42,469 bases of DNA from a virus: the IMG/VR virus record IMGVR_UViG_3300047471_000244, positions 1 through 42,469 of that record; one strand, 5' to 3'. This document shows positions 1 to 42,328 of this stretch, piece by piece. The stretch's first letter is position 1. Each line of letters opens with the position of its first letter. Made by a program: the position numbers and the translations under genes. Under the pieces are notes generated by a model, which did not search any database, was not told where the DNA came from, and saw nothing but the letters and a program-made list of their open reading frames with translations.

Positions 1-268
1 GCCAGAGAATCGCCGCCCATTGCTTATCGAGCGCGATTAGCTGGTCCTCGTCCATGCCGGAGAGCGCCTCGAGCAGCGCCAGCCCCCAGCTTATCGTCAG
101 CGGGCGCGACGCCCACGGCGGATTTATCTTGCCGCCCAGCTCGTCAATCCAACCCTCGATGATGGAGTCTATCTCGACGAAGCCGTCCTGCACGGCAAAT
201 TGAAACTTGATGCCGTCAACCTTGGTCAGCAGCGCGCGCAGCCGGAATTTCCATTGCAGGTCGGTCAT
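1..268 (-). CDS. Hypothetical protein, C-terminus cut by window edge
   Basis: Eighty-nine codons are visible, starting MTDLQWKFRLRALL, and the frame stays open to the left edge. The ATG overlaps the stop of the upstream gene as ATGA, so the genes are translationally coupled. I do not recognise the family. The sequence is mixed acidic/aromatic with no membrane segment. The codons for TISW (positions 97-86) recur in frame in the truncated gene at the right edge, so the two may be parts of one gene in a circular genome. Confidence 0.7.
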   Translation of the reverse strand, partial: MTDLQWKFRLRALLTKVDGIKFQFAVQDGFVEIDSIIEGWIDELGGKINPPWASRPLTISWGLALLEALSGMDEDQLIALDKQWAAILW

Positions 269-807
269 GCCAGATGAATGCCCCCCGCCTTCGCTAGAGC
301 CGCCCGACGAGCGCGCGCCATTTCGGCTAAGTCGTCGTTCAGTCGTGCCGTTTGTTCGGGACTTAGTAAGTCATTAGGCGACCATCGAATCTTGGCCTGT
401 AGCGGGTGCGTATCAACTCTTGGACGACTTTCTCGCCCCCATTTGCCGCCGCCAGTGCGCTCCGCTACTACGCGCCATCCCGCAGCTCGGAGCGACGCTC
501 CCGATTCCTCTGGCAAAGTGTAGGTGATTAGCTTCCGATAACCGAGCGCTTTGGCCGCTCGCCACGCCGCACCGTACAGCATTGAGTTGGCGTTTTTGGT
601 GCCATCGGTGCAAGTGCGATTGACTTCGAGCGTCCAGCCATCATCAAGCATTCGCGCGATCGGACGGCCTACGATGGCAACTCCGACGATGCCGCCGCTA
701 TCCGCCACAGCGAGACAAAACTTAGCCCCCGGCACTGGCGCATGATGCCGATGATGTTTTTCGACGAAGGCATTGGCCTCATCGAGCGTTATAGGTACGA
801 TTTCCAT
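265..807 (-). CDS. XF1762-family protein, GNAT/Mom-like acetyltransferase fold
   Basis: A 180-aa protein matching the phage XF1762 family almost end to end: an HHRHHAPVPG segment near residue 18, then GRPIAR, LEVNRTCTDG, NSMLYGAAW and a GASLRAAGWRVV block near the C-terminus. The family is GNAT-like and resembles Mu Mom, which alters adenines in phage DNA to block restriction. Whether XF1762 proteins do this is inference. It lies a few genes downstream of an MT-A70 adenine methyltransferase, which fits a DNA-modification or anti-restriction role. Its stop overlaps the next start. Confidence 0.85.
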   Translation of the reverse strand: MEIVPITLDEANAFVEKHHRHHAPVPGAKFCLAVADSGGIVGVAIVGRPIARMLDDGWTLEVNRTCTDGTKNANSMLYGAAWRAAKALGYRKLITYTLPEESGASLRAAGWRVVAERTGGGKWGRESRPRVDTHPLQAKIRWSPNDLLSPEQTARLNDDLAEMARARRAALAKAGGIHLA

Positions 808-912: not shown

Positions 913-1056
913 TCAGCCCCCGTACCACGCGCAGACAAAGATGATCGGCAGCGCAACCGCCATCAGCCCGTAGGCGAGCCACACCTTCCAGTTGCCCCGC
1001 CGTTGCCACATCCACGAGCCCTCGGTCTCGTCGAACAGGTCGCAGCGGTGCTTCAT
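913..1056 (-). CDS. Small membrane protein (47 aa)
   Basis: A 47-aa ORF starting MKHRCDLFDETEG, with a soluble N-terminal half and a C-terminal transmembrane segment (about residues 27-44, LAYGLMAVALPIIFVCAWY). The ATG overlaps the TGA of the methyltransferase gene (ATGA), which strongly supports the start. A longer overlapping frame in this interval is arginine-rich and looks like a shadow. Function not recognised. Confidence 0.65.
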   Translation of the reverse strand: MKHRCDLFDETEGSWMWQRRGNWKVWLAYGLMAVALPIIFVCAWYGG

Positions 1057-1619
1057 GCCGTCGCCCCCACAAATAAATCCTTCTGGGGCAAGCCGTTACT
1101 ATACGGAGATTCGTCGCCCCAGCCGTCAAAGCCCGTGATAATCCGCCGATTGAATAGGTCGATGCGAGGCTCGCAACTCACCTTGCGAACGAGCGTATAG
1201 AACTCCCCCGGCTTGGCGCTGTGCTCGGATGGAACCGCCTCGAAGTGAGTCGGGAGATAGCGGAGGCGCTTGAACTCACAGCGCTTGTAATAGCCGAACA
1301 GGCAATGCTGAGTTGTGCCGACGAACCACGAACCAACGCCCGAAGGTTTCACCCACGTTACCGTGGTCAGGTACTTGAACCCCCAGCCCTCCACCACGTC
1401 GAAGGCTTGACGCAAAAATGCGTTCGTCGTCCAGAGCCAGAGATGCGAGCCCACATCAGCGATTGATTCAATTGGAAGCGCCTTGATTTCCTGCAGCCCC
1501 ATTCCTTCGTAAGGAAGTCGCACGGCTTGCTGTGGACGACGTTTCCCGCCCCACGCCATCGGCTGTCGCCACGGCGGGTCAACCACGATGCAACGGTATT
1601 TGCCGTCAGGCAGGTTCAC
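1053..1619 (-). CDS. MT-A70 family adenine N6 DNA methyltransferase
   Basis: A 188-aa protein with the catalytic DPPW at residues 14-17 directly after a short beta strand (CIVVDPPW), as in the MT-A70 family. LWLWTTNAFL, the WVKPS motif and a C-terminal LFNRR segment follow. It transfers a methyl group from SAM to the N6 of adenine in DNA, and in phages usually protects against host restriction. It uses a GTG start whose bases overlap the stop of the upstream lipoprotein gene (GTGA). The target site cannot be read from sequence. Confidence 0.92.
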   Translation of the reverse strand: MNLPDGKYRCIVVDPPWRQPMAWGGKRRPQQAVRLPYEGMGLQEIKALPIESIADVGSHLWLWTTNAFLRQAFDVVEGWGFKYLTTVTWVKPSGVGSWFVGTTQHCLFGYYKRCEFKRLRYLPTHFEAVPSEHSAKPGEFYTLVRKVSCEPRIDLFNRRIITGFDGWGDESPYSNGLPQKDLFVGATA

Positions 1620-7469: not shown

Positions 7470-8704
7470 CGAATCACCGTCGCGGTAACGTGGCTCGCGT
7501 TCGCGGAGCTGCCCCACGCGCTACTTGTCGATGGATCGGTGGGCGAGACGCACCCTATTTGTTGATAAGTCCCGATTTGCAGATTGTTGGCGATATAAGT
7601 CCCCAAGGTGTCGCCGCCGAGACTGTAGCCGTTGCCCCACGGGCACTGGTAATTCGTTCCACTGATATTCCAGCCGAGTTGGGCGATGCGCGTTCCTGGC
7701 GCGGTCTTCTCGACGCTCGCCCGCTGTGTGACGAACAGGATATTCGAGAAGGTGCCGAGGTTCATGTTGTAGATGTCGTAAGCGCCTGCGGTCGCGTCGG
7801 CGTTATAGCTTGCGCTGCCGGGTGTCGCCGCCGCCGCGTTCTGCCAGTTGGCGTTCGCGTTGGGCGTGAAGTCGATATGGGAACCATTGCCGATCGGCTG
7901 CGCAGTCGCGCCGTACATCGTCCCCAGCGCACTCGCGGGACAAGCCGCGCCGGAATCATAGACGGCCCATAGTCCCTGCCTCAAAGAACCGCCACCGCCA
8001 AGCTCATAGTCAGGCACAGTAACGCCGTTGCCACCGCCTATATTTGGCGCGCTAGTGCCCGGCGTGGCATTGTTGACGTATTGAGTACCGTCCAGCCACG
8101 CCGATTCTTTCGAGGGAACCGTGCCGCTCCCATTCGTTCCCGAGATATAGCACCATTCGTTCTGATGGAAACTGCCATCAGTCGGTAGCGCTACGCTCTT
8201 CGATCCGCTTCCTGTCACGTCACTGAAAATCTTGTTGTCGGTGCCGATTTCCTGCGCCGCATAGTCGATGCAGCCGCGATAGACGCCCGTTGTCGCCTGA
8301 TGCGTGCAATCGTTCAGCCGATTAATAAAGACGTTCGATGTGATGTTTCCAGTGAGCGCGATTAACTGGACGATGCCGATCGCGCGGTGCGGCTGGTTGA
8401 GCTTGACGAAAATCCCTTGCCCCGGATTCGGCGCACCGCCGCCCGCGCACGTCGCTCCGTTGGTCGCCTCCACATAGTAGTCGAGACTGACGCTATTCGG
8501 GTCCCATATCGGCGCACTTATCAAAGCCGTCTGGAAGCAGTTCGGAAAGTTGACGATGTACGGGTAGAGGAAATCCGTCCCGCTAATCGGGTTAGCAGCG
8601 CCATAGCCGTTATAGCTGCCGCCCGCGATCCACGTCCGCGTCTGTGCCAGTGCCGGCGTTACCCACAGGCAAAGCGCGATGAGAATGGGCGCTATGCGGT
8701 TCAT
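7466..8704 (-). CDS. Sec-exported fibre-like protein (412 aa)
   Basis: The start MNRIAPILIALCLWV overlaps the previous TGA; the signal peptide probably ends in ALA before QTRTW. The mature protein is rich in Asn, Gly, Ser and Thr with scattered cysteines, aromatic-rich beta segments and a C-terminal THR/SER-rich end. It has the composition of phage fibre or adhesin beta-solenoid and jelly-roll proteins. It is coupled at both ends to other signal-bearing genes. The exact function is unknown; receptor binding is the main guess from position. Confidence 0.75.
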   Translation of the reverse strand: MNRIAPILIALCLWVTPALAQTRTWIAGGSYNGYGAANPISGTDFLYPYIVNFPNCFQTALISAPIWDPNSVSLDYYVEATNGATCAGGGAPNPGQGIFVKLNQPHRAIGIVQLIALTGNITSNVFINRLNDCTHQATTGVYRGCIDYAAQEIGTDNKIFSDVTGSGSKSVALPTDGSFHQNEWCYISGTNGSGTVPSKESAWLDGTQYVNNATPGTSAPNIGGGNGVTVPDYELGGGGSLRQGLWAVYDSGAACPASALGTMYGATAQPIGNGSHIDFTPNANANWQNAAAATPGSASYNADATAGAYDIYNMNLGTFSNILFVTQRASVEKTAPGTRIAQLGWNISGTNYQCPWGNGYSLGGDTLGTYIANNLQIGTYQQIGCVSPTDPSTSSAWGSSANASHVTATVIR

Positions 8705-9885
8705 CACGATCCAAACGTCGGACAGCTAGGCACCTGAAGTTGTGGTGTAGCCGGCCCGGTATGATATTCAAGCGCAAACAAAATGCAGCTCCCTGCCGAG
8801 GTCGGCATCGTTGGCTGCGCGGCACATCCCCCCGTTGTTGCGAAAGTGACCGCCGTCCCACTGCCAGCGGCAAGCGCCGCGAAAGTGAAAGGCCCGCCGC
8901 CTATTGGATTCGGCTGGCACACCCAGAAATGGTCGCTCCAGCCGCTCACGGGCGCTGCCGTCGAGGCAAAGGTGGTCGTTGTGTTATTCCCGCTCAGGGT
9001 GAGCACATGACACTCGCTAACCGGATGCGTCTTGTTCTTCGGGGTCAGGGTCGAAGTCGTGGTGCCCGATACCACCGTGCAATCGGGGAAAGCGGGGGCG
9101 ACCGTCGCGTCGATAGTGTTCTTGTTGGCCTTGCCGGTAACGTCGCCTGCGAGATTGTTGCCGTTGCCGCCGCCCGTTCCCTGCGCTGCGGCGATCTGAA
9201 TGTACGTCAGCGGGTCGGTGCCGATCGTCGTCACTGGTAGCTGCTCAAGCCAGAGCGTCCCCACCAGCGTTCCGCCAGCCGCCACAGGCACAGCCCCAAC
9301 CGAATCGATATTCGCCGCCGTGTTGTAGTCGGTCGCCCGCGTGAGTACCCAAGGGTTGCTGCCATCTCCCGCCGCGGTTACAAGATAGACGCCGTTTTGA
9401 AAGGTGCTCACTTGATTCTTGACGAGTACGCGATTGTTGAGCACCGCGACGGTGCCATCGACCGTCAGCGTTCCATTGCCGGTGCGAGTGAGCGTCGCGC
9501 CAACGCCCGCAGTGCCGTTGTTGTAAGTCGGCGTGTTCGGCAAGATGGCGATCGTCGCAAGGTCCACTGAGGCCAGCGGATTAAGTGCCGCCAAGGCTTG
9601 CTGAACGAATAGAGTAGTCGGAATCTTTGTGCTGGAGTCACCCGAGGTCGGCGTCGTGCCGATGGCTCCGCTCTGCACAGAGACTACTTGGCCGGTGAGC
9701 ACGCCCCCACTCTGCGAAGTTCCCGAGCCGAAGTCGCCAGCGCCGCTGGTGATGGTCGTGCCGCCCCCACCGCCGCCGGCTCCCGCCCCACCACCGAATC
9801 CGGCGCCGCTGTTATTCCCCGCAGCGGAGGCGACTAAGGGCATCGCCAAGGCCAACATGAGGAGGATTGAGACAAGTCGTTTCAT
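8704..9885 (-). CDS. Tail-fibre repeat-domain protein with signal peptide (393 aa)
   Basis: The signal peptide MKRLVSILLMLALAMPLV with ASA cleavage is followed by AAGNNSGAGFG and a glycine-rich linker. Residues around 130-235 match the widespread phage tail-fibre repeat (YNNGTAGVGATLT, LTVDG, NNRVLVKNQ, GVYLVT, WVLTRATDYNTA), found otherwise in cytoplasmically assembled fibres. The C-terminal domain is beta-rich with cysteines. This mix of a genuine fibre module with a Sec signal is unusual. The start overlaps the upstream stop (TAATG). Confidence 0.8.
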   Translation of the reverse strand: MKRLVSILLMLALAMPLVASAAGNNSGAGFGGGAGAGGGGGGTTITSGAGDFGSGTSQSGGVLTGQVVSVQSGAIGTTPTSGDSSTKIPTTLFVQQALAALNPLASVDLATIAILPNTPTYNNGTAGVGATLTRTGNGTLTVDGTVAVLNNRVLVKNQVSTFQNGVYLVTAAGDGSNPWVLTRATDYNTAANIDSVGAVPVAAGGTLVGTLWLEQLPVTTIGTDPLTYIQIAAAQGTGGGNGNNLAGDVTGKANKNTIDATVAPAFPDCTVVSGTTTSTLTPKNKTHPVSECHVLTLSGNNTTTTFASTAAPVSGWSDHFWVCQPNPIGGGPFTFAALAAGSGTAVTFATTGGCAAQPTMPTSAGSCILFALEYHTGPATPQLQVPSCPTFGS

Positions 9886-32912: not shown

Positions 32913-33116
32913 CTACCCTTGCAAGCCGATACCAGCCGAGCTCCCCAGCACGCTACGCGTGCCGGTGCGAGTCGCAGGCTGGTCCTGCGGTAGCACGGTG
33001 GCAGCGTAGCCACGGCGCCTGCGTATCTGGTCGTTAGCGTCGGCTTGCTGTGCGGCTTGGTCAATCGTCGGGGGTTTCGGTGGCGGTGCGGGCGGAGGCG
33101 GTGCTTTCGGTGTCAT
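32913..33116 (-). CDS. Proline-rich small phage protein (67 aa)
   Basis: Starts MTPKAPPPPAPPPKPP, then DANDQIRRRRGYAAT and a TRTGTRSVLG end. This resembles small proteins encoded between terminase and portal in many podoviruses (a proline-rich head, RRR followed by a T-x-L motif, ending in a xLLGx motif). GAGGTT lies 4 nt before the ATG. It overlaps the small terminase gene by 56 nt. Confidence 0.7.
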   Translation of the reverse strand: MTPKAPPPPAPPPKPPTIDQAAQQADANDQIRRRRGYAATVLPQDQPATRTGTRSVLGSSAGIGLQG

Positions 33117-33528
33117 GTTGAACCTCAACAGGAAACGGTTCACTTGGCGGTTCAGTATCGCCTAGGTTGATGTTGATCTGGAAGGCCGTCGCGCTGCCAG
33201 TGTCGGATGCGTAGTGGCCCTCCGCCTTGCCGAGGGCGTCAAGCGCTCGCTGTTTATGGTCCCAGCGAAACTCGTCAACGGGCATTGTGTCGTAGGCTAA
33301 ACGGCGTTGTTCAGCGTGCCATTTGGAGACGGATTCAACAGCCTCAGCAGTGGCGTCGATACGGGCTGGGCGTTGAATAATGGCGCTAATCTCGGGGTGT
33401 TTAAGTAAGCGAGCTCCAATCGAATAAGCGGTTTTCTGGGAATAGCCTGCGGTAATGGCGGCTTGAGTGGCGTTGGGGTGCGCAAGATAGGCCTTAATGA
33501 AAGCCGCCTGTTGAGGATTCAACGCCAT
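33061..33528 (-). CDS. terS: Terminase small subunit
   Basis: The ATG start MALNPQQAAFIKAYLAHPNATQAAITAGYS is diagnostic of the terminase small-subunit HTH (AAFIKAYL then ATQAAITAGYSQKTA, ARLLKHPEI), which binds DNA to start packaging. The C-terminus is acidic and Ser/Thr-rich. There is no good ribosome binding site before this ATG; a TTG 39 nt upstream (33567) would extend it. It is the first gene of the long leftward late operon. Confidence 0.88.
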   Translation of the reverse strand: MALNPQQAAFIKAYLAHPNATQAAITAGYSQKTAYSIGARLLKHPEISAIIQRPARIDATAEAVESVSKWHAEQRRLAYDTMPVDEFRWDHKQRALDALGKAEGHYASDTGSATAFQININLGDTEPPSEPFPVEVQHDTESTASARTATETPDD

Positions 33529-33582
33529 ATCGGTTGAGTATATGCCGAAACTCAACAGATTGGGCAAGCGAGCAACAGCGGC

Positions 33583-33611
33583 TTGACATCATACTAAGCG
33601 CCAAGTAGATT
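33583..33611 (+). promoter_or_regulatory. Rightward sigma70 promoter for the first RHH gene
   Basis: TTGACA at 33583-33588, 17-nt spacer, TAGATT at 33606-33611 (4 of 6). The predicted start of transcription falls at the ATG of the RHH gene (33619), which has no ribosome binding site, so the mRNA is probably leaderless. The opposite strand has TATGAT at 33593-33588, a possible -10 for the leftward late operon with a poor -35, so the two promoters would overlap. Confidence 0.6.
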
Positions 33612-33618
33612 AGTCGCT

Positions 33619-33741
33619 ATGGCGATGAATCCACTAGAGTCTAAAACGTATCGAGTGCAACTGACAGCAGGCGAGCACAAGGCTTACAAGGTATGGTGCG
33701 CGCAGAATGAGGTGAAGGCGAGCGAGCATTTGGCCCCGTAG
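33619..33741 (+). CDS. Truncated ribbon-helix-helix regulator (40 aa)
   Basis: MAMNPLESKTYRVQLT then EHKAYKVWCAQNEVKASEHLAP matches the strand and helices of CopG/Arc-type RHH DNA-binding proteins, which bind operators as dimers. It ends early at TAG. One extra C in the GGCCCC run at 33732-33737 (or a -1 ribosomal shift) would continue the frame as VAEMHESENT to a TGA at 33768-33770, a much better second helix. No ribosome binding site; a leaderless start is likely. It probably controls the palindromic operator just downstream. Confidence 0.55.
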   Translation: MAMNPLESKTYRVQLTAGEHKAYKVWCAQNEVKASEHLAP

Positions 33742-33779
33742 CTGAAATGCACGAAAGCGAAAATACTTGAGTCTAGCTA

Positions 33780-33808
33780 TTGACACAAAGCGCCTTGTGT
33801 ACTAATCT
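33780..33808 (+). promoter_or_regulatory. Rightward promoter with embedded palindromic operator
   Basis: TTGACA at 33780-33785 with TAATCT 17 nt on (33803-33808), or TACTAA/ACTAAT slightly closer, forms the promoter for the rightward block. The spacer holds the near-perfect palindrome ACACAAAGCGCCTTGTGT (33783-33800; 16 of 18 positions symmetric), overlapping the -35. A protein bound there would block RNA polymerase. The upstream RHH protein is the obvious candidate. Confidence 0.6.
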
Positions 33809-33837
33809 CCAATCATCAAGCAAGGGGAGATTGAACA

Positions 33838-34026
33838 ATGAACTACGCGGGGCAGGTTACGGGAACAATCGAAGCGATTAAGCCTCCGACCAAGAGCCGC
33901 AAGCGTTCTGAGCTGCGAGTGAGAGTCGAGGAGTCAACCTATCACGTGTTGACGTGGATCAAGGATTACTCGGTTGGCCAGTCGATTACGTTGACTCGGC
34001 GTGCCGATGGCACAATCGCCCGCTAA
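33838..34026 (+). CDS. Small early protein (62 aa)
   Basis: MNYAGQVTGTIEAIKPP, basic KSRKRSELRVRVEES and a beta-rich end, preceded by AAGGGGAGA at a good distance. The predicted fold is a small beta barrel, perhaps nucleic-acid binding. First SD-bearing gene after the operator-controlled promoter, so an early protein. Family not recognised. Confidence 0.65.
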   Translation: MNYAGQVTGTIEAIKPPTKSRKRSELRVRVEESTYHVLTWIKDYSVGQSITLTRRADGTIAR

Positions 34027-34052
34027 ACGCTTACTTGTAGGAGAGTAACGAG

Positions 34053-34262
34053 ATGACCATTCAAGAGCGCTACGACAAGATCATGGAGACGCTGAAGGCT
34101 GGCGGAGCGGTAATCGTCGCCACATACACCAAAGCCACCCAGTACGATGCGCGCCATATCGAGTACTTCAAGCTGAGCGGCAAAAGCCTGTATGTCCGTC
34201 GCGGCAAGCATTGGGATTGCATCGATTACTGTGCGCTGCGCTTCGGACTGCCAGCCCGCTAA
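34053..34262 (+). CDS. Small early protein (69 aa)
   Basis: MTIQERYDKIMETLKAGG then a beta segment (AVIVATYTKATQY) and YFKLSGKSLYVRRGKHWDC. GTAGGAGAG precedes the ATG. Soluble, alpha/beta, with a WDCIDYC end. No family recognised. Confidence 0.65.
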   Translation: MTIQERYDKIMETLKAGGAVIVATYTKATQYDARHIEYFKLSGKSLYVRRGKHWDCIDYCALRFGLPAR

Positions 34263-34287
34263 CCAGCAAGCAGAGGAGATGACGACG

Positions 34288-34536
34288 ATGACATATCTAG
34301 AGCCGAATCATCCGCATCATGTGCGCGATTACGCCAAGCTGATTATCAACGGCTTTCGTGTTCTGACGCCCGACTCATGGTCGGCTCGCTCGCTCGAAAA
34401 CAGTCTCAAAGAACGCGAATACTCCGGCGACTGGACAGGCTTCCGCGGCGTCGTGGAGGAGAACGCGAAGCATCTACTGAGTCTTGAGCGTTCCGCGGCG
34501 CGTGCCGAATGGAATCGCTTTTCAGGAGGTATCTAA
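34288..34536 (+). CDS. Early protein (82 aa)
   Basis: Starts MTYLEPNHPHHVRDYA; GAGGAG lies 9 nt upstream, making this ATG better than one 9 nt before it. The protein is helical with charged ends and a W-x-G-F segment (GDWTGFRGVVEENAKH). Function unknown. Confidence 0.6.
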   Translation: MTYLEPNHPHHVRDYAKLIINGFRVLTPDSWSARSLENSLKEREYSGDWTGFRGVVEENAKHLLSLERSAARAEWNRFSGGI

Positions 34537-34538
34537 CC

Positions 34539-34676
34539 GTGACCACCGCGCAGATTCAGGCCAGGAGAGCCCTCATCGACGCCGATTACCCGCCGCGTCA
34601 GCCGCTCTGGTTGCGCCTGCTCGTCGGCGCAGCTATCGCCGTGGCGCTCGGCGTCCTGCTGGAGGTGTGGCGATGA
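34539..34676 (+). CDS. Small tail-anchored membrane protein (45 aa)
   Basis: A GTG start after AGGAGG (9 nt) opens a basic helix (AQIQARRALIDADY) then a membrane span at about residues 22-44 (LRLLVGAAIAVALGVLLEVW). Its TGA overlaps the methyltransferase ATG (ATGA). A membrane-anchored early phage peptide; role unknown. Confidence 0.6.
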   Translation: MTTAQIQARRALIDADYPPRQPLWLRLLVGAAIAVALGVLLEVWR

Positions 34677-35239
34677 AAGTTTTAGTCGCCTGCGAATTTA
34701 GCGGTATCGTGCGCGAAGCATTCCGTAAGCGCGGACACGACGCTTGGAGTTGCGACCTGCTGCCGAGCGAAATCGGCGGCGATCAACATCTTGAGGGTGA
34801 CGTGCGCGATTGGCTCAATGCTGACCATCATTGGGATTTATTAATCGCACATCCGCCATGTACGTTCTTGGCCTCTAGCGGCGCCCGATGGTTTGCGACG
34901 CGACAGCATCAACAAAAGTGGGCCATCGAATTTGTCCGCGATTTGATGGATGCGCCGGTCGACCGTATCGCGCTCGAAAATCCGATTGGAGTGCTATCAA
35001 CGCGATTCCGCAAGCCCGACCAGATAATTCAACCGTGGCAATTTGGACACGGCGAGACCAAGGCCACCTGCCTCTGGCTCAAGAACCTTCCGCCGCTCAA
35101 GCCGACGAACATCGTTGAGGGACGCTACGGTCGCGTATTTCGTGAGGCGCCAAGCCCCGAACGCTGGAAAAATCGCAGTCGCACATACCAAGGAATCGCT
35201 GATGCGATGGCCGAACAATGGAGCAACCCAAATGACTAA
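34673..35239 (+). CDS. DNA cytosine methyltransferase-like protein
   Basis: A 188-aa protein. MKVLVACEFSGIVREAF forms the SAM-binding start; HPPCTFLASSG (60-70) holds the catalytic Cys of motif IV; ENP at 102-104 is motif VI; QPWQFGHGETKATCLWLKN follows. This is a common phage single-domain relative of C5-cytosine methyltransferases, shorter than classic enzymes and without a clear target-recognition domain. Probably modifies phage DNA to evade restriction. The start overlaps the preceding stop. Confidence 0.88.
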   Translation: MKVLVACEFSGIVREAFRKRGHDAWSCDLLPSEIGGDQHLEGDVRDWLNADHHWDLLIAHPPCTFLASSGARWFATRQHQQKWAIEFVRDLMDAPVDRIALENPIGVLSTRFRKPDQIIQPWQFGHGETKATCLWLKNLPPLKPTNIVEGRYGRVFREAPSPERWKNRSRTYQGIADAMAEQWSNPND

Positions 35240-35417
35240 AACCGGAGATATGCTCAACGTCCAGCACCAGACGCGCCACTCCGAGCTGGTTCACGCCGTC
35301 GCGATTGTGGCCCTGGTCGCCGTCGCGTTCGCGCTGTTCTGGTTCGGCTCGCCGCGCGTCCCTGTGTTCAGCCAAATCCATCAGATCGCGATAGCGAAGG
35401 GAGGTTTCCAGCGATGA
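35232..35417 (+). CDS. Single-span membrane protein (61 aa)
   Basis: MTKTGDMLNVQHQTRH precedes a membrane span at about residues 20-41 (LVHAVAIVALVAVAFALFWF) and a short basic tail. GGAG lies 8 nt before the ATG, which overlaps the methyltransferase end by 8 nt. Its TGA overlaps the next ATG. Function unknown. Confidence 0.6.
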   Translation: MTKTGDMLNVQHQTRHSELVHAVAIVALVAVAFALFWFGSPRVPVFSQIHQIAIAKGGFQR

Positions 35418-35674
35418 GCACCAGCAGAGGCGACGCCATCAGGCGCCTGCGACCCGTCAACAAGAGAACGCGGCGCGATGAATTTGCCGAGTTGCGCGAG
35501 CATATCGAATCGCTTCCCGTTATCGGTAGGCGGATATCGGTGCGCCGCCTGCTCGACTTCCACGACAAGGCCGTCGCCGCGTTACGTAAATACGAGACGA
35601 TGACATATGGCCCGCTTATTGACTTCGGCCATGAGGCCCGCGAAGTGCTCGCCGACCTCGACAAGGAGATTTAG
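35414..35674 (+). CDS. Helical early protein (86 aa)
   Basis: A basic N-terminus (RRLRPVNKRTRRDEF) then helical regions with LREHIESLPVIGRR and LLDFHDKAVAALRKY. The ATG overlaps the previous TGA (ATGA). Possible nucleic-acid or protein binding; no family recognised. Confidence 0.65.
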   Translation: MSTSRGDAIRRLRPVNKRTRRDEFAELREHIESLPVIGRRISVRRLLDFHDKAVAALRKYETMTYGPLIDFGHEAREVLADLDKEI

Positions 35675-35676
35675 CG

Positions 35677-35904
35677 ATGCCGCTCGATATTGCGAAATTG
35701 CGCCACGACGCCGACCATGCGACCTCGTTGCTACGCTTACGGGACATCGCCGAGCAGGCCCTCGAAGCCGCCGAGAAATACGAGAAGGCGCTGCGGGAGA
35801 CTTGGGACAAACTCCGCCGAGCTCATACCTGCAAAGACAAGGAATGTGAGTTTGTCGATGCGATCACGGCGGGGCTGCTCGTTATCGACAACGCCCTCGA
35901 CTAG
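35677..35904 (+). CDS. Helical early protein (75 aa), last of rightward block
   Basis: MPLDIAKLRHDADHAT with long Ala/Glu helices (IAEQALEAAEKYEKALRE) and a CKDKEC pair near residue 52. Its TAG shares the bases CTAG with the stop of the opposite-strand gene, so transcription of both blocks meets exactly here. Function unknown. Confidence 0.65.
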   Translation: MPLDIAKLRHDADHATSLLRLRDIAEQALEAAEKYEKALRETWDKLRRAHTCKDKECEFVDAITAGLLVIDNALD

Positions 35905-36284
35905 ACCCGCCCCCGCGCCCGATGCCCGCGATAGCGCGTCAGCGTCGGCGTCGGGCGCGCTCCGCCGTTCCCGTTCACTGCTGAGCGCTTCGCTATCTTC
36001 CCTTCCCAGTTCCGCAGCCGATTCCGCCATACTGCCGCGTCATAGCCCAGCAAATCGCAGCACCAAGCCAGCGAGAACGCCCCGTCCTGCTCGCTTTCAG
36101 CCCAAATGCGTGTCTCTCTATGGATTGGACCGTTCGCGGGCTTCTGGAGGCATCTAATCGCGTCCTCCAGCACCGCCAGCGCCAAGCGCTTGATGGGTTC
36201 GTTCAGCCGCTCGCCGCGGTTGGCGTAGAATTGGACCGGCAGAATGCCCTCGTTCGCAAAGAGATCGTCGTGGTTGTCCATCAT
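35901..36284 (-). CDS. Putative HTH-type phage regulator (127 aa)
   Basis: Starts MMDNHDDLFANEGI. LALAVLEDAIRCLQK and GAFSLAWCCDLLGYDAAVWRNRL follow a pattern seen in phage and bacterial proteins where a helical ALEDAIRC block precedes WI..PFSFxxVCEVLGIDPxxxRRxL, thought to be helix-turn-helix. The C-terminus is basic and disordered. It is last in the leftward block; a late-gene activator is one idea. Confidence 0.65.
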   Translation of the reverse strand: MMDNHDDLFANEGILPVQFYANRGERLNEPIKRLALAVLEDAIRCLQKPANGPIHRETRIWAESEQDGAFSLAWCCDLLGYDAAVWRNRLRNWEGKIAKRSAVNGNGGARPTPTLTRYRGHRARGRV

Positions 36285-36448
36285 GCCGCCGCCTTCGCCG
36301 ATTTCGCCAGCTCGTTAAGCTGCTCCAGGCACCAGAGGCAGACCCGCCTCGCGTAGCGGCTCGTAAAGCTGAAGATTATCGCCTCGTCCTTGTGCACCAC
36401 GCGCCGACAGCGGCAGCACTCGCGATAATTCGTTGAATTTTTGCTCAT
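36281..36448 (-). CDS. Zinc-binding CxxC protein (55 aa)
   Basis: MSKNSTNYRECCRCRRV then RVCLWCLEQL: two CxxC knuckles about 23 residues apart form a credible zinc site. The ATG overlaps the upstream TGA and its TGA overlaps the next ATG (ATGATG), so it is firmly coupled. Confidence 0.65.
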   Translation of the reverse strand: MSKNSTNYRECCRCRRVVHKDEAIIFSFTSRYARRVCLWCLEQLNELAKSAKAAA

Positions 36449-36783
36449 CGTGCGAATTTCTCCACCGCTGCCTCGATTGTCCGTAGAGCGTCACCGCTCT
36501 GCACCATTTCCGCCGTGAACCTGAATACGCGCCAGCCCTTGAGCGTGGCCGCGTTGTATTTCTCCATATCCGCCGCAATGCCCTTGCCGGTCTGATGCCG
36601 TCCCTGAATCCAGGTACCACCCTCGATCTCGACCGCCAGCTTGTAGAGGCAATGGGCGAAATCGAAGCGCCAGCGCCGCGGTGGTGCGAATACCACCTCC
36701 CGTTCCCAGCCGCGGAGCTTCGCCGCCTTGAGCTGCATCGCGAATAGCTCCTCGTGCTCGCTGCGGGCCTTGAGCTTGGTCAT
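36445..36783 (-). CDS. Vsr/restriction-endonuclease-fold nuclease
   Basis: The start MTKLKARSEHEELFA has AGAGGA about 10 nt upstream. WRFDFAHCLYKLAVEIEGGTW (about 50-70), GRHQTGKGIAADMEKYN and LKGWRVFRFT form the usual PD-(D/E)xK core of phage-encoded Vsr-like proteins: Asp, then E-x-E-G-G and a Lys/His pair. It probably nicks or cuts DNA in repair or recombination. It follows replication-like genes in the same block. Length 112 aa is typical. Confidence 0.82.
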   Translation of the reverse strand: MTKLKARSEHEELFAMQLKAAKLRGWEREVVFAPPRRWRFDFAHCLYKLAVEIEGGTWIQGRHQTGKGIAADMEKYNAATLKGWRVFRFTAEMVQSGDALRTIEAAVEKFAR

Positions 36784-36938
36784 TCGCGGTATTCCTCTGG
36801 TCTCACGCCCGTGCCCATAACCCAACGTGCCCAAAGCGGAGCACCCGCCATACAGACATCAATCCTCGGCATATGGAATCGTGTGCATCGCGAGCAGGTC
36901 AGCCAATGCCGCCACCAGCGCTTCGCCTCTTCGGTCAT
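36780..36938 (-). CDS. Small Cys/Trp-rich protein (52 aa)
   Basis: MTEEAKRWWRHWLTCSRCTRF with CSRC and a further Cys near 29, rich in Trp/Arg. GAGGAGACGCTG is a strong ribosome binding site. The TGA overlaps the nuclease ATG. May bind one zinc ion; function unknown. Confidence 0.6.
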   Translation of the reverse strand: MTEEAKRWWRHWLTCSRCTRFHMPRIDVCMAGAPLWARWVMGTGVRPEEYRE

Positions 36939-37150
36939 CAGCGTCTCCTCGGGAAAATAGGGTCAGTCTTCCGTAAAAGATTAGAGAGGGCCAATAAATC
37001 AGCTACGCAGTCGCGATCGATTTCTCCTGTGTCGCACCTTCGCAGAAGCTCTCGCGCCGAAATCCCACAGCGGCGCCTCGATCCAAGCTCCAGTTCTTGG
37101 ATGATTTCTGTTCGGGACAGACGCACGGCGGCCCCCTTCGACACTTTCAT
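36938..37150 (-). CDS. Small hypothetical protein (70 aa)
   Basis: MKVSKGAAVRLSRTEII then RCGISARELLRRCDTGEIDRDCVAD; helical, with an HTH-like ISARELLRRC run. Coupled on both sides. Possible DNA binding, but weak. Confidence 0.6.
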   Translation of the reverse strand: MKVSKGAAVRLSRTEIIQELELGSRRRCGISARELLRRCDTGEIDRDCVADLLALSNLLRKTDPIFPRRR

Positions 37151-37515
37151 CGATTCTTCATCCTCAGCTTGGCCGCTAGTTTGTCCCGCGTTTCTCTAAG
37201 GATTGCGCGACCTTTTTCGATTTCTTCGGGTGTCGATGTCCGCTCGGTTGTCCCGATGCGTGGCCGATTGCGATTCTCGGCGAGCATCCGGCTCTTGCGC
37301 TCGTCGTGCGAAAGCTGGAGCAGTTCGCCCGCCGTCGGGATGCGGTCCTGATTCGGCATGGTCTGGATCGCCCGCATCACCGCCGCCATCACGTCCCGCT
37401 GGTCAGCGTTGGCGAATATCCGGCACCAGCCCGCGATCGTGAGATCGTCGGAGGGTTGCCGCATCCAGTTCGCCTTGAATTGCGCCAGCACCTCAATGGT
37501 CTCGTCGCGATCCAC
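37147..37515 (-). CDS. Helicase-loader-like replication protein (122 aa)
   Basis: A GTG start after GAGGAATCACA. ETIEVLAQFKANWMRQP, then DVMAAVMRAIQTM, RIPTAGELLQLSHDERK resembles phage helicase-loader/replisome-organiser proteins, where a helical repeat is followed by a P-[ST]-[AP]-[GA]-E-L/I-like motif and a charged tail. It would bring host DnaB to the phage origin, which fits a genome lacking its own polymerase. The assignment is by pattern only. Confidence 0.5.
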   Translation of the reverse strand: MDRDETIEVLAQFKANWMRQPSDDLTIAGWCRIFANADQRDVMAAVMRAIQTMPNQDRIPTAGELLQLSHDERKSRMLAENRNRPRIGTTERTSTPEEIEKGRAILRETRDKLAAKLRMKNR

Positions 37516-37819
37516 TGTGATTCCTCATCAGGTTATCCATGCCGGTTTTGCCGTAGAACACGGACTGCCGTGGCGCTTGAGTGCTGACGCCCTGTGGTGT
37601 GGTTCTGAAACCATAGAGCTTCTGATTCACCGCCCACGTCCGCCATGCCTGCGGCCAGAGCTTAAACACGCTGCCAAGCGAGAGATGGTGCGCCTCGAAT
37701 TTCTCCCATTGCAGGGCAATGTCCGCGTCGCTGGAGCTCGGGTTGTACTTGCGGAACGTGGCGATCTCAGGCTCGCCCAGCGCCCAGCCCTCGGGGAACT
37801 CCGTTAGCTGGCGCTTCAC
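37493..37819 (-). CDS. DnaT-like replication protein C-terminal domain (108 aa)
   Basis: The GTG start gives MKRQLTEFPEGWALGE, coupled to the previous stop (GTGA). SSDADIALQWEKFEAHHLS then FKLWPQAWRTWAVNQ matches the end of many phage replication initiators (a FPEGW/LPEGF opening, then a W/F-x-K-F-x-x-x-H segment and a TW-x-x-W helix), related to DnaT. It probably works with the loader-like protein encoded next, which overlaps it by 23 nt. Confidence 0.55.
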   Translation of the reverse strand: MKRQLTEFPEGWALGEPEIATFRKYNPSSSDADIALQWEKFEAHHLSLGSVFKLWPQAWRTWAVNQKLYGFRTTPQGVSTQAPRQSVFYGKTGMDNLMRNHSGSRRDH

Positions 37820-38004
37820 GATTCCACCCCGAGGATGTCCTGGATTCGACAGACCAAGCACCAATCATCCACATCCTTGAGGTGACACCCCGGATCATCG
37901 CAAGTCTTTTCAACGCAGCAAGGTCCATGCGCACAAGGCCCGCTACAGCCAAATTCGCTCAATACCGCTTCGATGCTCTTGCGTTTCGTTGGTTCATCTG
38001 GCAT
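37816..38004 (-). CDS. Cysteine-rich zinc protein (62 aa)
   Basis: Starts MPDEPTKRKSIEAV after AGGAGACGAAACG. CSGPCAHGPC, CVEKTCDDPGCH and CLVC supply at least eight cysteines and two histidines: probably two zinc clusters. Its TGA overlaps the next GTG. Function unknown; nucleic-acid binding is likely. Confidence 0.65.
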   Translation of the reverse strand: MPDEPTKRKSIEAVLSEFGCSGPCAHGPCCVEKTCDDPGCHLKDVDDWCLVCRIQDILGVES

Positions 38005-38039
38005 TATCGTTTCGTCTCCTCACGAGACACCCCCTTGCC

Positions 38040-38324
38040 TCACCACAAGGTTATCGACACCGACGCCTGAGTCGTAATTGACTTGGGCGTTTGTGTTCTG
38101 TTAGAGTCCATCCGTCCACGCAACGTCGCGATTCGATAACCTGACGACGCGGGGGGCTGATTGCGCGCTTCTAAGCTCGACGCCATTAGCCAAATCCATC
38201 CTGAGCCTTTTGCTATGAGGGATGGTTGACGGACTCGTAAGACGCGAAGAGCGGGGAGTCCCGAGAGAGGTGAATCAACACCGAGGGAGAGTCCCAAACT
38301 CTTTATTGGGCATCTTGCGCCCAT
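38040..38324 (-). CDS. Doubtful 94-aa ORF in a 319-nt gap
   Basis: This frame starts with an ATG overlapping the TGA of the upstream zinc gene (TGATG) and is the only long frame in the gap 38005-38323. Its codon use is unlike that of neighbours (many TCA, CTA, AGA and CGA codons), and it reads as low-complexity Leu/Ser/Arg. The gap also holds a small stem (TGGGC/GCCCA, 38307-38323) and repeated GGACTC/GAGTCC pieces that could form RNA structure. Either a weak gene or non-coding. Confidence 0.3.
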   Translation of the reverse strand: MGARCPIKSLGLSLGVDSPLSGLPALRVLRVRQPSLIAKGSGWIWLMASSLEARNQPPASSGYRIATLRGRMDSNRTQTPKSITTQASVSITLW

Positions 38325-38560
38325 CAAACGAGTTTTCCCTGTCCGCTTTGAATCTGCCGATAGCTGTCTATATCGAAGTCTTTAGGAACTGATCCGAAGC
38401 TGGCTCGGTACTCGCGCTCGCCTTTCTTGCAAACGCCGCAAGTACAGTAGGATTTCGTCCTCTTGCGATGGAGCAGCCAGACGAAATGGAGACCGCATAG
38501 ACCCGACCAGTGCTCGTTACCGGCCTTCCTCTCACAGCCCTCTAAGCTACATAGAGTCAT
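38324..38560 (-). CDS. Zinc-finger protein, first of the leftward early block (78 aa)
   Basis: Starts MTLCSLEGCERKAG after GGGGAATCG. CSLEGC followed by LCGLHF gives a CxxxxC...CxxH metal site, seen in phage HNH-type and DNA-binding proteins, and CTCGVC adds another pair at about residue 44. The soluble C-terminus ends in QGKLV. It is transcribed leftward from the divergent control region. Confidence 0.68.
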   Translation of the reverse strand: MTLCSLEGCERKAGNEHWSGLCGLHFVWLLHRKRTKSYCTCGVCKKGEREYRASFGSVPKDFDIDSYRQIQSGQGKLV

Positions 38561-38674
38561 CGATTCCCCGCCGCCTCGTGCATGGCGCTCCAATGCGCCC
38601 CGTCCGCATCCGCTGCTAACTTCCAGTCATCTACAATGTCGAACTTTAAGAGCGATAATCCCACAACGATTCGC

Positions 38675-38726
38675 AGACTAGAATTATTTCGGAATCTTGT
38701 CAAGCGAAATCTGCCACGCTTGACAA
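38675..38726. promoter_or_regulatory. Divergent control region with perfect 10-bp inverted repeat
   Basis: TTGTCAAGCG (38697-38706), ten bases, then CGCTTGACAA (38717-38726): a perfect inverted repeat whose arms each contain a TTGACA hexamer, one per strand. On the minus strand TAGTCT follows after 17 nt (38680-38675) for the leftward block. On the plus strand TTGACA lies 36 nt before the RHH ATG; its -10 (CACACT, 38743-38748) is weak. ATCTGCCAC is repeated at 38709-38717 and 38737-38745. A single dimer pair could silence both directions. Confidence 0.65.
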
Positions 38727-38755
38727 ATTATGTTGCATCTGCCACACTGACCAAC

Positions 38756-38929
38756 ATGGCGAACAAATCGAGCAAGCTCAAACATCCGCCGATGCGCATT
38801 TACTTGCGCCTCTACCCCGAACACGATCTTTCGTTGATGGCCTACTTGCGGGAGAAAATGAAGAAGCTGGATCGCTCCGCCTCGTGGGTCATCAGGGAAG
38901 ACCTCAGACGGCTATTGGAGATGGACTAA
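38756..38929 (+). CDS. Ribbon-helix-helix-like regulator (57 aa)
   Basis: MANKSSKLKHPPMRIYLRL, then HDLSLMAYLREKMKKLDRSASWVIREDLRRLL: a short beta strand and two helices as in RHH DNA-binding proteins, here with an extra basic N-terminus. There is no ribosome binding site, and the ATG sits where transcription should begin, so the mRNA is probably leaderless, as for lambda cI from PRM. Likely binds the inverted repeat just upstream. Its TAA overlaps the next ATG (TAATG). Confidence 0.65.
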   Translation: MANKSSKLKHPPMRIYLRLYPEHDLSLMAYLREKMKKLDRSASWVIREDLRRLLEMD

Positions 38930-41381: not shown

Positions 41382-41539
41382 TGCGCTACTCCGGCGGAAT
41401 CTCCACGACCTCGCTAGGTCCGTCGCCGCTCGGTGGCGGCGGCTCGACCCAGCTATGCTCGCCCGCCGGCGCGTCGGGCGCTACCGGCACGGTCGCGGGA
41501 ACGCCGTCATCAGATGGCACGGATAAACCACAGGTCTGA
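41381..41539 (+). CDS. Low-complexity Gly/Ser protein (52 aa), end of rightward block
   Basis: MRYSGGISTTSLGPSP followed by Gly/Ser/Thr-rich sequence to KPQV. The ATG overlaps the previous TGA. It overlaps the end of the opposite-strand protease gene by 30 nt. Low complexity makes it less certain. Confidence 0.5.
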   Translation: MRYSGGISTTSLGPSPLGGGGSTQLCSPAGASGATGTVAGTPSSDGTDKPQV

Positions 41540-42328
41540 TGCAAGTTGCCGATTGAGCACGTAGGCGAACGGGATGAACCCGTAGCCCTTCTGGCCCCAG
41601 AGAATGCCCCAGCTATTGCGGAACACGAAGGTCATCGGGGGAATCTGCGTTTGCAGTTCATCGCATGGCTGCGGCTGCGCGGTGCGGTTGTAGCCCACGA
41701 TATCCGTCGCGTGACCGCCCTCGGCATCTTCCGAGTCCCCTGGCATCGGAATGTTCCCGTCTCGCGCCGCCATGAACGACGGATAGACCATGATGCCGTA
41801 GTTTACCGGTGCCTGGTTGTGGTGCAGGCATCCGATGATGTTCACGTCGATCTGCGGAATGGGCGCATAGGTATGTGCGCGGATGGTCGCCCCTTGGTCG
41901 TAGGCGGCTTGTGACGGCGGAGTCGTGAAGTCGCTATCGTCGTAGGGCATCAGGCTCTTATCGCAGATGCCGTACTTGTTCCCCGCGCGATAGATGTCGG
42001 AGATGGAAGCGCCCGCGTCCTGGTCGGTCTGCCCGTTCAACAGCCGCTCGTTGTAATACATATACGCGGGCGACGGCACGATGACCGGCGAGCGTCCCGC
42101 GTGGACTTCCGCTATGTAGTACGGAGCGACCGCGGAATGCCCCGTGCAAGCGCCCTGCTGGCCCTGGTCGGTGACTTCCGGGCACAGCTTGATAATCGTC
42201 ATAGACGGCGGCGCCGTGTCGATGCTGAAGCTCGCATCGAGTTTGTGCGGTGGCGTCCGAATTGGGCCATCCCAAACGTAGTTTAGCGAACGCCGAACGC
42301 CGAGATGGTCAACGGAAAATCCGATCAT
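41510..42328 (-). CDS. Papain-like (C1A) cysteine protease
   Basis: A 272-aa protein with the full papain triad: TDQGQQGACTGHSA gives oxyanion Gln55 and catalytic Cys61 (six apart, as in papain); GGHATDIVGYN gives His206; FRNSWG gives Asn238. VPSPAYMYYNERL and ISDIYRAGNKYGICDKS are typical of bacterial and phage C1 peptidases. There is no signal peptide or propeptide. The start has AAGGGG upstream. It is probably made late, and may process virion or cell-surface proteins. Confidence 0.9.
   Translation of the reverse strand: MIGFSVDHLGVRRSLNYVWDGPIRTPPHKLDASFSIDTAPPSMTIIKLCPEVTDQGQQGACTGHSAVAPYYIAEVHAGRSPVIVPSPAYMYYNERLLNGQTDQDAGASISDIYRAGNKYGICDKSLMPYDDSDFTTPPSQAAYDQGATIRAHTYAPIPQIDVNIIGCLHHNQAPVNYGIMVYPSFMAARDGNIPMPGDSEDAEGGHATDIVGYNRTAQPQPCDELQTQIPPMTFVFRNSWGILWGQKGYGFIPFAYVLNRQLASDLWFIRAI

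Follow-up and report, generated by a model that had tools for sequence, protein, structure and literature searches.

The CI regulator of phage lambda is made from PRM on a leaderless message, and its gene lies beside a bidirectional operator region. TetR of Tn1721 is a small regulator that is also translated from a leaderless message. The small viral ribbon-helix-helix (RHH) proteins Arc and Mnt of phage P22 and SvtR of SIRV1 are repressors that act at viral promoters; to our knowledge, they do not form a leaderless pair at two divergent regions, and few leaderless phage genes other than lambda cI have been well studied. The C proteins of restriction-modification systems are small autoregulators that commonly have leaderless transcripts and an operator at the promoter (PMC4824078). 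In type V-K CRISPR-associated transposons, the genes of CvkR and Cas12k form a divergent pair in which both mRNAs are leaderless, and sister systems use Arc-like RHH repressors (PMC9938897). Here we describe two control regions of a phage known from IMG/VR virus record IMGVR_UViG_3300047471_000244. The whole stretch of DNA that was analysed, 42,469 bases long, is called the window below. Each region contains a small RHH-like gene, designated RHH1 and RHH2, with a promoter positioned as if for a leaderless message.

Like lambda cI, RHH1 and RHH2 encode putative phage regulators, are apparently leaderless, and stand next to bidirectional control regions. However, CI is a helix-turn-helix (HTH) protein, whereas the window proteins are RHH-like and occupy two regions, and neither an integrase nor a CI-type domain was found in the window. 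With Arc, Mnt, and SvtR they share small size, the RHH-type assignment, and a position at viral promoters, where their binding is predicted; no close sequence relation to these three proteins was found. The arrangement resembles that of CvkR and Cas12k in that the apparently leaderless gene of a small putative repressor diverges from the gene it would control, with a candidate inverted-repeat operator in the short spacer; in contrast, CvkR is a MerR-type protein of a transposon, and binding and transcription starts have been proven for CvkR and are predicted for the phage (PMC9938897). The C proteins differ from the phage proteins in having an HTH fold and in belonging to restriction-modification operons rather than to phage control regions (PMC4824078). 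A literature search of the open-access set, judged by titles and abstracts, yielded no paper on a leaderless phage RHH gene.

The late operon (portal, tail and so on) runs leftward from terS at 33528, and a rightward operon extends from 33619 to 35904. A further leftward operon reaches from about 38600 to 35901, and another rightward one begins at 38756. The directions of the genes at 33528/33619 and at about 38600/38756 therefore place RHH1 and RHH2 at two divergent junctions. It is moderately probable that both are RHH-type first genes with leaderless messages, and that each protein is a local autorepressor. The genes and their promoter elements are as follows.

33619..33741, + strand: RHH1, truncated RHH-like gene, 40 amino acids (intact 62-amino-acid frame in contig L003)
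38756..38929, + strand: RHH2, RHH-like gene, 57 amino acids, first gene of the rightward early operon
33061..33528, - strand: terS, encoding the small subunit of terminase; it opens the leftward late operon and diverges from RHH1
33583..33588, + strand: RHH1 -35 hexamer TTGACA, 36 nucleotides (nt) before the ATG at 33619
33606..33611, + strand: RHH1 -10 hexamer TAGATT (4/6), spacer of 17, ending 7 nt before the ATG
38720..38725, + strand: RHH2 -35 hexamer TTGACA, 36 nt before the ATG at 38756
38743..38748, + strand: RHH2 -10 hexamer CACACT (3/6), spacer of 17, ending 7 nt before the ATG

The original prediction had reported a TTGACA hexamer exactly 36 nt before both start codons and the lack of a ribosome binding site at both genes, and each of these observations was confirmed. 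The Shine-Dalgarno core (GGAG, AGGA, or GAGG) is absent upstream of RHH1 and RHH2; it is present in 163 of the 307 other genes of the window phage and the genomes of its relatives. Only four of these 307 genes have TTGACA, matched in at least five of six positions, at 34–37 nt before the start. All other predicted genes of the window phage and four relatives were scored for a -35/-10 pair at a distance that would let transcription start at the start codon. RHH1 scores 10 and RHH2 scores 9; among 309 other genes, four reach 8 and one reaches 9. The combination of this geometry with the absence of a Shine-Dalgarno sequence is exceptional among the 309 genes. By the usual signs of a leaderless gene, no Shine-Dalgarno sequence and a promoter at the start codon, RHH1 and RHH2 both appear leaderless. 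The hexamer TTGACA is about as frequent in the window as chance predicts (13 found, 12.5 expected), although four of these copies fall within the two control regions. In a general promoter scan, the region was not richer in promoters than shuffled sequence (5 found, 5.4 expected), and the evidence therefore lies in the position relative to the start codon and not in the motif.

Since RHH1 and RHH2 had been picked out for their geometry, relatives provide the unbiased test. The RHH genes of L031 and L032 were located by their position, divergent from terS, before their promoters were inspected. Beside terS on the divergent strand, L031 encodes a 124-amino-acid protein preceded by TTGACC-17-GACAAT-6-ATG, and L032 encodes another RHH protein preceded by TTGACG-18-AATCAT-5-ATG, so that in both TTGACN lies 35 nt before the ATG. 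The next gene in the window, in L031, and in L032 has an ordinary TTGACA promoter followed by a leader and a Shine-Dalgarno sequence, and the contrast with the RHH genes is therefore specific. In the window, this second promoter is the following element.

33780..33808, + strand: TTGACA-17-TAATCT, promoter of the gene at 33838, with ordinary leader and Shine-Dalgarno sequence

A possible RHH-like counterpart of RHH2 in the second region of G006 (L108:1089), the first small gene of a rightward operon, has TTGACA-17-AAATAT-8-GTG; it was found by a scan for the geometry, which biases it as evidence, and Pfam gave no match for it. The start-proximal layout recurs in divergent relatives with different RHH proteins. 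The proposal of regulators made from leaderless messages at bidirectional regions is thus sustained, as far as sequence can show, by the recurrence in relatives and by repeats lying on the promoters. A start-proximal promoter, TTGACA-17-CATCAT-6-ATG, also precedes an HTH-like regulator at L059 582 (+).

The identification of both genes as RHH-like held in part. RHH2 matches RHH_1 with E=0.02 and 15.3 bits, below the curated cut-off of 20.5 (single-genome searches gave 0.001 and 0.0005). RHH1 has no RHH family match, either as the window frame or in the intact L003 form, and neither protein passes a curated cut-off. Weak resemblance of intact RHH1 to MobC relaxosome proteins of Methylocystis plasmids was detected (E=0.04). 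The syntenic proteins of relatives resemble ParD/ParG (L031), NikA-like proteins (L025), and HicB/RHH_1 (L032), all below curated cut-offs. A joint profile of six proteins (A3) matches the solved RHH proteins HP0222, ParG, ParD, 2kel, ORF56, and NikA with E-values of 0.0014–0.5; these matches are driven mainly by the relatives. Alignment with hhalign against a small RHH profile gave a significant individual assignment for neither window protein, and a Foldseek search with the low-confidence model of RHH2, the only one searched, returned no meaningful match. The RHH assignment is clearer for the syntenic relatives and weak for the two window proteins, for which "RHH-like" is the appropriate label. 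The L031 gene in the RHH1 position (8449-8823, -) is an apparent fusion of a zinc-finger/HNH-like front segment with an RHH domain.

Conservation of the RHH frames, which the original prediction relied upon, was borne out for RHH2 and for RHH1 outside the window. RHH2 is 100% identical in L002, with no amino-acid and two synonymous changes, as in G002; L002 was the only close relative found in a search for RHH2. RHH1 is intact in L003, a contig 99% identical to the window over 7.9 kb with 11 substitutions and one indel, but is cut short in the window itself. In L003, 37 additional bases at 33729 yield a frame of 62 codons with the expected second helix, whereas the window frame stops after 40 codons and lacks this helix. 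The window RHH1 is a truncated allele and is probably inactive. The missing 37 bases fall between two TTG trinucleotides in the window, which suggests slippage as the origin of the loss. Assembly collapse was judged a less likely cause, because the 7.9 kb contain no other indel and only TTG borders this one. No RHH1 copies besides that of L003 were found in IMG/VR contigs. One of two nearly identical phages carries a naturally broken regulator allele.

Both divergent regions contain repeats that may serve as operators.

38697..38726, no strand assigned: inverted repeat TTGTCAAGCG-N10-CGCTTGACAA, candidate operator of the second region
38675..38703, - strand: leftward promoter candidate, divergent from RHH2, TTGACA (38703-38698), spacer of 17, TAGTCT (38680-38675)
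33537..33542, - strand: terS -10 hexamer TATACT of the start-proximal promoter
33533..33556, no strand assigned: inverted repeat GTTGAGT-N10-ACTCAAC, covering the terS -10 and spacer, candidate operator
33783..33800, no strand assigned: near-perfect palindrome ACACAAAGC/GCCTTGTGT in the spacer of the promoter of the gene at 33838

The second-region repeat is exact and unique (expected 0.00), and its arms hold the outward-facing TTGACA -35 boxes of both divergent promoters. L002 retains it with one base changed outside the hexamer. A direct repeat, ATCTGCCACGCT / ATCTGCCACACT, lies at 38709-38720 and 38737-38748, 28 bp apart, with one copy overlapping the RHH2 -10; it is a possible second operator element. 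In the first region, the palindrome and the spacer of the RHH1 promoter both contain AAGCGCC (weak, shuffle p=0.03), and the other motifs common to the RHH1 promoter and the next one, GCATGC (p=0.08) and ACATG (p=0.37), are weak and give a hint only. G002, which has a different RHH1, has GTTAAC repeats at the terS promoter instead, whereas its RHH2 is unchanged and its second-region repeat differs by one base. This natural swap between G000 and G002, a single comparison, points to RHH1 acting at the first region and RHH2 at the second. Because it is a single comparison, and because terS of G005 has a GTTAACC repeat but no adjoining RHH gene, the link between RHH1 and the terS repeat has only moderate support.

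According to the favoured interpretation, the message of each RHH-type protein would start at, or a few bases from, its start codon, and each protein would be an autorepressor acting locally at its own divergent region. The predicted target of RHH2 is the 30-bp inverted repeat with both -35 boxes, from which it would damp its own operon and the leftward operon together. RHH1 would occupy sites in the promoters of its own gene and of the gene after it, the repeat across the promoter of terS and the late operon, or both. Leaderless translation may result in weak expression of the regulators, independent of leader structure, and promoter, operator, and start codon would be packed into about 40 bp. 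The window copy of RHH1, shortened by the 37-nt deletion, is probably inactive. DNA binding, repression, and the direction of control by RHH1 and RHH2 are predicted from the nucleotide sequence.

Several points weigh against this interpretation. The transcription starts of RHH1 and RHH2 are deduced from promoter geometry, and the operators of both regions are candidates assigned from their repeats. Profiles built in a leave-one-out manner from the other proteins recover neither RHH1 nor RHH2, and the RHH name therefore rests on a short strand-helix-helix pattern and synteny. Single-sequence AlphaFold models have low confidence (predicted local distance difference test (pLDDT) scores of 68 and 78) and an inconsistent topology. 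In L025, which belongs to contig G002, the RHH gene beside terS, a third one, lacks the geometry (score of 4). GTG is the start codon of several terS genes and of the possible RHH2 counterpart in G006; leaderless mRNAs with a GUG start are inefficient in Escherichia coli and Caulobacter (PMC9031893), and the hosts probably belong to the proteobacteria.

It is possible, though doubtful, that both messages carry short leaders of the ordinary kind that lack Shine-Dalgarno sequences, and that the start-proximal promoters were misassigned, the true starts lying upstream. The RHH2 -10 (CACACT) is poor, and TATGTT at 38729 could serve in its place, with a leader of about 15 nt; furthermore, the Shine-Dalgarno core is also absent in close to half of the other genes. 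However, the same distance from the -35 and -10 hexamers to the start occurs in several relatives with unrelated flanking sequences, compared with one of 309 background genes.

Leaderless expression may extend to terS, which in the window has no Shine-Dalgarno sequence and a start-proximal promoter, TTGCCC-19-TATACT-8-ATG. Similar promoters precede terS in L025 (TTGACT-19-TATAGT-5-GTG) and L029 (TTGACC-19-TAACAT-5-GTG), and weaker ones are present in L032, L033, and L031. More distant TerS genes are mostly without a start-proximal promoter. From these sequences, terS looks leaderless across the clade. A broader proposal, which we consider unlikely, is that leaderless use is a property of the whole clade: the first genes of the early operons (RHH) and of the late operon (terS) would be leaderless, many internal genes would use Shine-Dalgarno sequences, and the programme would be timed via host conditions. 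If this were true, timing would operate through conditions favouring leaderless messages, such as 70S initiation or the levels of initiation factors or initiator tRNA. The distant terS at L022 2731 (+) has a start-proximal promoter, TTGACA-17-TAATAT-6-ATG. The starts of terS and RHH1 in the window (33508-33532 and 33615-33639) form inverted-repeat arms that are 80% complementary and both begin with ATGGCGWTGAATCC, as if one gene start had been copied from the other.

It is improbable that RHH1, rather than regulating terS, is an accessory protein similar to MobC or ParG that functions in DNA processing or packaging and regulates only itself. The weak similarity of intact RHH1 to MobC and that of the G002 RHH1 to NikA-like proteins connect it to RHH relaxosome proteins, which often also autoregulate, and the RHH1 gene adjoins the terminase genes. 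However, no relaxase or partition gene was identified, and the weak matches may reflect the shared RHH fold alone.

The original prediction had further suggested that RHH1 and RHH2 repress each other's regions as a bistable lysis-lysogeny or timing switch; both genes do lie at divergent control regions, and the RHH1 -35 context GGCTTGACAT matches one RHH2 half-site at 8 of 10 positions, six of which are the -35 hexamer itself, but this is very improbable, as the operator-like inverted repeats differ between the regions, the RHH1 region of G002 lacks such a half-site though its RHH2 is identical, the G000/G002 comparison fits two separate local circuits, and a working twin switch in the window genome is contradicted by its broken RHH1. 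The window contains no match to integrase or serine recombinase families (PF00589, PF00239) and none to a CI/Cro-type HTH repressor (HTH_3), and a lysogeny decision is therefore not indicated; the relative G005 has a tyrosine integrase.

Throughout this uncultivated clade, transcription of the regulator genes and of terS seems to begin at the start codon, despite exchanges of the RHH proteins and of the repeats. The clade may serve as a natural series for asking why leaderless regulators are favoured by mobile elements.

The window phage is podovirus-like; the portal protein shares 42% identity with its counterpart in Caudoviricetes MW202898 and 35% with the one in Burkholderia phage BcepC6B. 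More distant relatives occur in bacterial genomes, mostly of Burkholderiales and Alphaproteobacteria, and a proteobacterial host is likely. A Mom-like/XF1762-family gene at 265-807 (-) has TTGACA 35 nt before its ATG, without a credible -10. An MT-A70-type methyltransferase gene is located in the left part of the window (1053-1619, -) and immediately adjoins the second control region in L002 (4265-4787); differently placed in two related phages, it looks mobile. A second DNA methyltransferase (phrog_757) is encoded at 34673-35239, and the phage genome contains a gene for a papain-family (C1) cysteine peptidase at 41510-42328 (-), with a Pfam E-value of 3.8e-9.

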